Shown piece after piece: positions 10,937-33,614 of a stretch of 36,427 nt of DNA. Where the stretch lies: NCBI GenBank assembly GCA_936920195.1, contig CAKZHE010000241.1, forward strand, positions 1 to 36,427. Reading direction: 5' to 3'. This stretch comes from an uncultured cyanobacterium. Its GTDB lineage: Bacteria > Cyanobacteriota > Cyanobacteriia > Cyanobacteriales > FACHB-T130. The position numbers were made by a program, and so were the translations under genes. The notes under the pieces are model-generated. The model did not search any database and was not told the origin of the DNA. It saw only the letters and a program-made list of their open reading frames with translations. Numbering within the stretch: the stretch's first letter is position 1; every line of letters begins with the position of its first letter.

Positions 10937-10968
10937 TTGAGATCCAAGGAGCCGCTGAACGGTACAAT
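10937..10968 (+). promoter_or_regulatory. Candidate promoter for the structured RNA / efp
   Basis: A good -10 hexamer, TACAAT (10963-10968), follows a weak -35-like TTGAGA (10937-10942) at a 20-nt spacing, longer than ideal. It precedes the structured RNA and efp and would read through both. The call rests on consensus match only. Confidence 0.35.
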
Positions 10969-10997
10969 TAAGGCCGATTGTTCTGCCCAAGGAATTC

Positions 10998-11481
10998 CAG
11001 CGTCAGTAACTCAGCCCTAAAGGGACTGAGCTTGTAAGAGAAATCAAGCAAGCTGTGCTGACCAGCCTAAGTCTTAACGGTTCGACTTAGCTCACCGTAA
11101 ACTGACTACGTTTTGAGAGTCACGACACCTCGGAATGCGAAGCTAGTTCCCTGCTCTGTCGCTTGCAGTTAAACAGTCTTAAAGTCACTGAGACAGTGCT
11201 GCAAGCCTAACAAGCTCTTAAAACCTTGGCGAAGCTAACATCACCCCGCAAGGGAGGCTCCTACCAGAGCAAAAATAAACTATGCGTACAGAGTTGCGAG
11301 GCTTGAAGTGGTAACTGTCCCACTGAAAGTACATTACAAAAGTACACCGAGTTAAGCAACTCCAAGGCGGTAGTTAATCAGAAAAGATTCAAGAAAGATT
11401 GAAGGCGGTTAAAACCGCTTGAGTCGTGTTTCCACGCTAGGTCTAAAGACACGCTTGTTTCCACACTCCCATGAGGTTTTT
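10998..11481 (+). ncRNA. Large structured RNA, HEARO/IscB omega-RNA-like, no ORF
   Basis: The 645-bp gap before efp is not empty. It carries a dense series of perfect stems: CTCAG/CTGAG (11010/11026), AGCTTG/CAAGCT (11029/11049), CTAAGTC/GACTTAG (11067/11084), GCTTGCAG/CTGCAAGC (11161/11199) enclosing CACTG-AGA-CAGTG, CCC-GCAA-GGG, GAGTTGC/GCAACTC (11291/11356) enclosing AGTGG/CCACT, and GCGGTT-AA-AACCGC (11405). The loop ACGGT (11077-11081) pairs with ACCGT (11094-11098), making an H-type pseudoknot. CGTG-TTTC-CACG and GTC-TAAA-GAC hairpins follow, then GAGG five nucleotides before the efp ATG. The layout (long multi-stem RNA with pseudoknot ending just before a start codon) resembles HEARO RNAs, the guide-carrying omega-RNAs of IscB nucleases, which are abundant in some cyanobacteria. 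The structure is seen; the family name is recalled from pattern and is not proven. Alternatives are an efp leader or another large RNA class. Confidence 0.55.
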
Positions 11482-12075
11482 ATGATTTCTAGTAACGATT
11501 TACGACCGGGTGTTGCCATTGAATTAGAAGGTAAAGTCTGGCGGGTAGTGGAATTCCTCCACGTTAAGCCCGGTAAAGGCGCGGCTTTTGTGCGGACAAA
11601 ACTAAAAAATGCTCAAAGTGGCTCAGTCAACGAACATACCTTTCGGGCTGGGGAATCAGTCGCAGAAGCGAATTTAGAGAAGCTGACCATGCAATATACC
11701 TATAAAGATGGGGATAATTTCGTCTTTATGGATATGGAAACTTTTGAAGAAAGTACCCTGATTGCGACACAAATTGGCGATCGCGTCAAATATCTCACAG
11801 AAGGGATGGAAGTGAATGTGGTTTTTTGGAACCAAACCGTTGAGAAAAACGGTAAAAAAGAGGTTCAAAAACAGGTTTTGGAAGTAGAATTACCGAATAC
11901 GGTGGTACTGACAATAATTCAAACCGATCCCGGCGTGCGGGGCGATACGGCGACAGGCGGGACTAAACCAGCGACGGTGGAAACTGGGGCGCAAGTGATG
12001 GTTCCCCTATTTATTTCTGAGGGTGAAAAGATTAAGATTGACACCCGCGACGATTCCTATATCGGACGCGAGTAA
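11482..12075 (+). CDS. efp: Translation elongation factor P
   Basis: The 197-residue protein starts at [10 protein letters not shown], the conserved start of cyanobacterial EF-P; a longer in-frame start at 11419 lies inside the structured RNA and is rejected. EF-P enters the ribosome between P and E sites and relieves stalling at proline runs. Three beta-barrel domains are present: the KOW-like N-terminus with the tip loop [10 protein letters not shown] (Lys32 at the tip), the middle OB domain, and the C-terminal OB domain ending [14 protein letters not shown]. It is about 10 residues longer than usual because the middle domain carries an extra Lys-rich loop ([11 protein letters not shown]) before QVLEVELP. 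The start is preceded by GAGG with a 6-nt spacer that belongs to the upstream RNA. It is followed by accB, the usual cyanobacterial neighbour. Confidence 0.97.
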
Positions 12076-33257: not shown

Positions 33258-33400
33258 GGCAAAAAAAGGGGGGCTGAGAAATTTTTTTTATTGCTGGTTC
33301 CATATTTGCCCCTTTATGGTTTATACTAGACAAAGTTGCCCCAACTGCTCGATTTGAGGTTTTGGAACTGCTAGCCAGGAAAGAAACGGGCAAAACTGAA

Positions 33401-33549
33401 TCAGCTTGCACCAAAGACAGCAGGAGCTAATTGCTTAAATTTCCTGCCGAGGTTAGCATACCAAAGATCTATACGTAGCCTGCGATCGCAGTTGGCACGG
33501 CAACAGAGAAATGGCACGCAAAACCCCGGCAGAAATTCCGGGGTTTTTT
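33401..33549 (+). promoter_or_regulatory. Ribosomal protein L10 leader (autoregulatory RNA)
   Basis: ACCAAAGACAGCAGGAGC, then TTGCTTAAATTTCCTGCCGAGG, give the conserved stem GCAGGA/TCCTGC and flanks of the L10 leader. In known leaders the L10(L12)4 complex binds this region and shifts folding toward a terminator. The terminator follows at 33520. A possible promoter (TATACT, 33322-33327) lies upstream. The 405-bp gap 33210-33614 also holds the IS-like relic. Confidence 0.75.
33520..33549 (+). terminator. Attenuator terminator of the rplJ-rplL leader
   Basis: AAAACCCCGG (33520-33529) pairs with CCGGGGTTTT (33538-33547), and T33544-T33549 follow. It is a canonical intrinsic terminator 66 bp before rplJ, expected to be the effector of the L10 leader. 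Confidence 0.85.
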
Positions 33550-33614
33550 GCGCTGATTGAACAATCGACCAGGCAATTCAGCGACAGCTAATTGTAAGGA
33601 GGTGAAATTTACCG

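Follow-up and report, generated by a model that had tools for sequence, protein, structure and literature searches.

An ORF-less HEARO/IscB-type element with a second RNA domain directly before the efp start codon of an uncultured cyanobacterium

The window analysed here, by which we mean the whole 36,427-nucleotide stretch of DNA from an uncultured cyanobacterium, holds a structured region that ends at the start codon of efp, the gene for elongation factor P. An earlier note, made from the sequence letters alone, had placed a large structured RNA without an ORF at positions 10998 to 11481. Its right boundary is exact, since the efp ATG at 11482 follows directly on 11481, but the left end lies at 11002. 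The features of the locus, all on the forward strand, are as follows.

10963..10968 (+): TACAAT, candidate -10 box of the efp promoter, from by-eye comparison with five relatives that carry TAAAAT there
10986..11001 (+): predicted omega-RNA guide, 16 nt of host DNA directly 5' of the HEARO match and part of the pre-insertion efp leader
10989-10993 (+): AAGGA, candidate native Shine-Dalgarno sequence, 8 nt from the original start codon
11002..11481 (+): complete ORF-less HEARO element, 480 nt, delimited by empty efp sites in relatives and by right-end homology to other copies
11002..11244 (+): HEARO / omega-RNA scaffold, from the RF02033 match
11245..11378 (+): R1, a second structured RNA domain of 134 nt with 32 consensus pairs, from alignment, covariation and a covariance model
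11379..11481 (+): right end of the element, with hairpins GCGGTTAAAACCGC (11405-11418) and GTCTAAAGAC (11441-11450); alike ends occur at C181, C228, C318 and C69
11473..11476 (+): GAGG, 5 nt upstream of the efp ATG, a candidate ribosome-binding site that the element brings with it
11482..12075 (+): efp, elongation factor P (NCBIfam PRK00529, Pfam EFP_N), whose start ATGA is also the junction motif

Residues 1-196 of the efp protein, read from the ATG at 11482, align to positions 2-185 of the PRK00529 model, and the EFP_N match begins at residue 3. Only one efp match is present in this genome. Within 11002-11481 there is no ORF of 80 amino acids or more, save an in-frame TTG extension of efp from 11419 that the family models do not call for. 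The same interval holds no iscB (HNH) ORF, and tblastn searches with two IscB proteins at an E-value of 1e-4 gave zero matches in the element. Elsewhere in the window, the Ribosomal protein L10 leader (RF00557) is matched at positions 33393-33558 with 52.5 bits; this is a cis-regulatory leader of the ordinary kind.

The earlier note had identified the region as a HEARO-type omega-RNA and had proposed a covariance search with the corresponding Rfam model. This search returned a forward-strand match to RF02033 at 11002-11244 with 150.2 bits (gathering threshold 83; E-value 8e-32) that extends over model positions 1-211 of 211. The score thus exceeds the gathering threshold across the entire model, as is expected of a member of the HEARO family. 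Because a linked HNH (iscB) ORF is optional for HEARO RNAs, the missing iscB leaves this membership standing. No intron family in Rfam matches at the element.

The predicted fold of 10986-11481 has an energy of -149 kcal/mol compared with a shuffled mean of -129 (z = -2.96), and one of 100 shuffles was equally low. The predicted fold therefore appears to be better than chance, with the energy by itself constituting modest evidence. A hairpin with a GCAA loop (CCC-GCAA-GGG) occupies 11245-11254, and this hairpin, the complementary arms described below, the HEARO match and the lack of a gene over 480 nt bear out the proposal of a structured, ORF-less RNA. An H-type pseudoknot had also been proposed. 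The arms ACGGT (11077-11081) and ACCGT (11094-11098) are indeed present, but they are no general feature of the 111 HEARO copies compared. The segment bearing them could be excised in 67 of the 111 copies and measures 10-19 nt in 60 of these 67. Long segments with an ACGGT arm were found in the window, in L159 (two arms intact) and in L053, where the second arm, ACAGT, no longer pairs. We rejected a conserved pseudoknot because the long loop is rare among the copies.

The site before efp can be compared with its state in relatives. In all five same-family genomes, which belong to three other genera and each have a single efp match, the region is absent. Their leaders read GCCGATTGTTCT or GCCAATTGTTCT, then a brief spacer, then ATGATTTCGAGTAACG, and the window reads GCCGATTGTTCT, GCCCAAGGAATTCCAGC, 480 additional bases and then ATGATTTCTAGTAACG. 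Spacer length is 17 nt for the window and for four relatives; the fifth, G001, has 28 nt. Given these leaders and spacers, the insert corresponds to 11002-11481 with zero target duplication. These comparisons indicate that the element inserted directly before the efp ATGA without duplicating its target.

An empty site is likewise seen for C69, an iscB-bearing copy from this genome that stands before glgC. Here the element is placed between ...GCGAGGTTTTT and GTGAAAAGAG, and the site is empty in all five relatives. The spacer from GAGG is 5 nt in C69 and G001, 6 nt in G002 and G003, and 8 nt in G004 and G005. Precise insertion before ATGA or GTGA, with an empty site in relatives, is the pattern of a HEARO/ISC mobile element, and the first description of HEARO reportedly had its elements end before ATGA or GTGA.

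Further copies and iscB genes, which the earlier note had suggested looking for, are both present in the genome. There are 11 HEARO matches, 10 of them above the cut-off, and eight IscB (RRXRR) matches, five of which lie in ORFs of 424-454 amino acids adjoining a HEARO. C181, C228, C318 and C69 have right ends like that of the window element, which read ...CTCCCATGAGGTTTTT or similar and end at [AG]TGA. The window element is thus a member of a multicopy group whose copies stand at unrelated loci and have common ends, as mobile elements do. Subterminal hairpins are present in the element, and the genome has 10 Y1_Tnp matches that are mostly partial, two of them with an internal stop. The earlier note had held that the lack of an RF02033 match, the lack of other copies and the conservation of the leader in relatives would speak against its proposal, and none of the three was observed.

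At G000:C228, positions 50121-50185, the right end stands before the start codon of hisD on a contig for which no HEARO match is listed, and we read it as a solo end or a decayed copy.

Evidence for movement comes from another genome. G183 carries four ORF-less elements with the R1 domain, 429-430 nt in length and 98.6-99.5% identical, at four sites whose 16-nt left flanks are unrelated and whose right flanks differ. Such near-identical copies at four sites indicate that protein-less members of the group have moved recently, and in trans. Across the class, the survey yielded at least 100 above-cut-off places outside this genome, among the best seven or fewer candidates per genome.

The middle of the window element is occupied by R1, which is closed by a stem of AACTAT and GTAGTT and has hairpins inside. 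A search by motif found an R1 segment after HEARO in 36 of 57 ORF-less elements versus none of 54 elements with an IscB match. When a covariance model of R1 was run on those 54 and on the 21 remaining ORF-less loci, it gave two weak matches, both in ORF-less elements (L106 and L148). As far as seen so far, R1 is restricted to ORF-less elements. Rfam searched at E-values up to 10 for a known RNA family matching R1 returned the HEARO tail alone.

An alignment of 29 R1 copies (A1) was prepared from 33 distinct domain sequences by leaving out L157 and L161, which have a long insertion, and the near-copies L110 and L129. In A1, 95.7% of the cells in 32 pairs are paired, compared with 33-42% in slid controls. 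Both sides have changed in 16 of the 32 pairs (shuffled mean 6.6), the covariation score is 0.239 versus 0.140 when shuffled, and none of 500 shuffles reaches any of the measures, in a test that somewhat favours the structure because it was predicted from the same alignment. R1 is a conserved RNA domain with strong covariation, outside Rfam.

Among 291 genomes of the class, 13 from eight genera contain matches to the R1 model, at least 67 in total, and three genomes hold at least 11 each. In 17 of the 20 R1 loci (of 30) that were run against Rfam, the HEARO end lies 3 nt or less from R1; L204, L205 and the doubtful L215 are the exceptions. We discounted as doubtful the 36-bit R1 match at G282:1307930, where a weak HEARO match overlaps it. 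A pattern scan of named genomes returned at least 116 stretches, and all 80 with titles listed are cyanobacterial.

On a tree of HEARO sequences built from 108 of the 111 copies, chosen by length, the R1 label is clustered, requiring 18 changes versus a shuffled mean of 29.1. A single lineage of ORF-less R1 elements is unsupported by these 18 label changes, of which at least seven are forced. These changes indicate that modules have been repeatedly exchanged or lost.

Individual loci depart from the usual arrangement. In L205 (G282, 1364-1700), a group II intron match lies within the HEARO portion; this ORF-less element has its right end directly at an ATGA start, and the downstream gene resembles by eye the one at L239, for which GH57/branching enzyme is the match. 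L204 (G265), which comes from a different family of the class, is a minimal element at about 1445-1650: the HEARO core is gone, the first arm is fused to R1, and the right end is kept before the ATGA of a gene resembling, by eye, a pentapeptide-repeat protein. At L219 (G134, 58-533), three matches to the nitrogen-stress RNA NsiR1 lie upstream of an ORF-less HEARO element. The R1 motif also occurs on two contigs of the IMG/VR viral collection, L339 and L340, which may mean that phages carry the element or that these contigs are host DNA.

The position of the window element before a start codon is common in its class. At least 119 pattern places yielded 114 junctions, four of them placed and one corrected by hand; of the five places without a junction, three ran off the contig and two (L244 and L306) have an unclear right end. 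Flanks of at least 40 nt are available for 113 of the 114 junctions, which represent 110 distinct sites, of which 107 are evaluable (two on IMG/VR contigs). ORF length played no part in choosing these junctions. The choice did demand [AG]TGA, and so the RTGA motif itself is built into this set. At 54 of the 107 sites the ORF that starts at the junction RTGA reaches 100 amino acids or more, leaving 53 sites where it does not, and at 62 it reaches 60 amino acids or more. In the flanks, 523 of 3835 RTGA sites (13.6%) open a 100-amino-acid ORF, in-frame codons within genes included. When coding sites are removed, 268 of 2601 RTGA sites are start-like and 2333 are non-coding, giving a null of 10.3% under a generous rule that counts sites up to 40 codons away from where a long ORF starts. 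Members of the group stand at the starts of long ORFs about five times more often than this non-coding-plus-start null; the p value of 2e-25 is a guide only, because sites in related genomes are partly dependent even after homologous right flanks were merged.

Elements with an IscB match exhibit the same tendency. Among the 31 that have a clear junction, 14 open an ORF of at least 100 amino acids by eye, a count outside which stand 23 of the 54 IscB-match elements, including C55 of G004, that have no clear junction. The start-codon habit thus belongs to the whole class rather than to elements with R1. In the genome of the window, all nine located right ends (window, C69, C228, C318, C181, C63, C295, C48 and C325) open an ORF of 94-545 amino acids at RTGA, of which C48, C325 and C295 are not independent because their listing admitted only RTGA sites with a 60-amino-acid ORF; C48 and C325 have the right end in common up to the chosen junction, and the count leaves out C244, C261, C12, C292 and C127.

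Downstream families in this genome include efp, glgC (model 1-429 on residues 1-429), hisD, DUF3067 and DUF1816. NCBIfam models start at residues 1-7 for efp, glgC, fusA (EF-G), cobQ, leuC, mnmA, psbA and dapB, and for the psbA junction ORF the model aligns as 1-360 on residues 1-360. The first ten downstream ORFs compared with Pfam included two without a match (C325 in this genome and L062 of G004); of ten further ones, nine have a Pfam match, among them UPRTase, GatC, YbaB and a response regulator. These alignments are consistent with the tested junctions being real start codons. At L248 (2606-3685), an ORF-less element lies exactly before the start codon of psbA.

One candidate explanation for the start-codon sites, that the element carries its own Shine-Dalgarno sequence, found no support as a rule. 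A Shine-Dalgarno-like motif is present in the right end at 13 of 54 start sites versus 14 of 45 others (p = 0.5), and this lack of excess argues against the supply of a ribosome-binding site as a general cause. The GAGG at 11473-11476 is accordingly a candidate for such supply as a property of the window copy and not as a rule. Native Shine-Dalgarno motifs are not enriched in left flanks either (6 of 38 versus 4 of 35; left ends were located at 87 of the 119 places).

IscB takes as its guide the host DNA that adjoins the scaffold on its 5' side, and cutting requires a TAM 3' of the target. On this basis we presume that 10986-11001 is the guide, with length and place taken from IscB biology. 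With up to two mismatches allowed, this 16-mer has 12 genomic matches, its own site counted, versus zero for the reversed pattern. The sole other exact match (C61) was rejected as a second target because it precedes GGTA rather than ATGA or GTGA; it lies antisense within an ORF. The remaining ten matches carry two mismatches. A simple sigma-70 scan reported no site at TACAAT (10963-10968), the candidate -10 box. A published study describes an omega-RNA in the 5' region of IscB that acts as guide RNA (PMC9755519). Because the window scaffold (150 bits) scores no lower than the copies of this genome beside full-length iscB (121-145 bits), a guide supplied in trans is plausible, and the window RNA probably uses IscB in this manner.

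Taken together, these findings are best explained, with a probability of about 80%, by a non-autonomous 480-nt HEARO/IscB mobile element without iscB, which carries an omega-RNA and an extra RNA domain between its ends and for which we propose the following steps. The element would be mobilised by enzymes acting in trans, namely a Y1/HUH transposase for the hairpin ends and IscB proteins encoded by the five full iscB copies. Transcription from the efp promoter, which lies upstream of 10986, would continue through the guide into the omega-RNA, such that the 5' leader of the efp mRNA serves as guide RNA. IscB in trans, together with this RNA, would then cut the uninserted allele, with the old efp leader as guide and ATGA as TAM, and the element would be restored. 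The predicted target of cutting is CCCAAGGAATTCCAGC-ATGA. In a polyploid cyanobacterial cell, an uninserted efp copy, whether present after loss or during spread, could in this manner be cut and then repaired with the element. Translation of efp would continue, with start codon and coding sequence untouched and with the GAGG in the tail of the element taking over initiation.

With its guide outside its own boundaries, the element would need a host promoter close by on the upstream side, which is precisely what a site at a start codon would offer. For the start-codon bias we favour a combination of tolerance and promoter capture, the latter because an external guide would work only at sites just downstream of a host promoter. 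A bolder version takes the start codon as a landing mark: the host promoter would always transcribe the external guide, the mRNA leader would become guide RNA and the protein would stay whole, while the ORF-less form would have swapped the nuclease gene for an R1 serving movement or guide-RNA function in trans, making it an all-RNA transposon. We offer this version tentatively and hold it to be less likely than not.

A bias toward start codons might also arise through purifying selection only, if insertion before ATGA or GTGA is random and all copies but those at start codons and in gaps are lost. In its favour, sites at starts keep the protein whole and the RTGA rule requires no additional mechanism, and we place it somewhat below an even chance. 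However, with coding sites removed, the 10.3% expected to be start-like falls well short of the 50% observed, and tolerance in gaps alone misses this number unless most non-coding sites are unusable too, for example where no promoter lies before the guide.

Two further explanations concern the window copy itself. The earlier note had raised the possibility of a domesticated leader, in which selection maintains the RNA because it now regulates EF-P synthesis in cis, and a structured element that abuts the start codon, stands in the leader and precedes a gene with one match in the genome would suit such a role. Its absence from five of five same-family genomes led us to reject an old domesticated efp leader; the same element class precedes many unrelated genes and the right end is common to other copies, and we consider this explanation very unlikely. 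Alternatively, the copy could be a dead relic, that is, a decayed iscB element that is functionless and merely tolerated. The lack of an ORF agrees with this, as does the finding that about half of the class is not at a long ORF, but a HEARO score as high as that of the iscB-bearing copies in this genome does not, and R1 base pairs have been kept by double changes in 16 of 32 pairs. The proposal that the nuclease was lost by simple decay also fares poorly, given that tblastn detects no IscB remnant, that the middle of the element is an RNA domain conserved in 36 of 57 ORF-less elements, and that ORF-less copies in another genome have moved recently. We therefore regard a dead relic as improbable, and favour the non-autonomous mobile element.

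If the mobile-element reading is right, frequent gene-start sites behind host promoters offer a testable reason why guides encoded partly outside the element stay transcribed. Host genes so preceded include the important psbA, fusA, glgC and efp, and leuC as well. R1 provides a handle on the spread of non-autonomous omega-RNA elements. For annotation, there is a warning that a structured 'leader' at a cyanobacterial gene start may be a recent insertion. ORF-less HEARO/IscB forms and ATGA/GTGA junctions were already known. For start-codon insertion of these elements or for the second domain, a search that excluded the founding HEARO, ISC and OMEGA papers found no paper, so that absence in print is unproven. 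The kind of element is thus known, and the start-codon excess and R1 are without a published description found in this limited literature search. One study regards the HEARO RNAs of Limnospira as mobility remnants and sets them aside (PMC8400943).

Among known systems, HEARO (RF02033) and the omega-RNA of IscB are matched over the full length of the model, by an iscB-bearing copy (C69) with a similar right end and by ends before ATGA or GTGA; unlike them, the window element has no iscB and has a further 134-nt domain outside the Rfam model. Non-autonomous elements of the IS200/IS605 type (PATE- or MITE-like) resemble it in having subterminal hairpins, no target duplication, small size, many copies and, presumably, mobilisation in trans, whereas the window element holds a guide-RNA scaffold and a conserved RNA domain rather than bare ends. 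Stand-alone omega-RNAs of IscB systems likewise have no adjacent nuclease and are presumably used in trans, but the window copy forms an entire element in which neither end is missing, and elements of this sort border the start of a long ORF in about half of cases. IStrons, which combine a group I intron with an IS605-type element, are likewise mobile elements whose RNA part reduces harm to the host gene. Unlike in IStrons, no intron family matches at the element described here, and harm would be avoided by position before the start codon.
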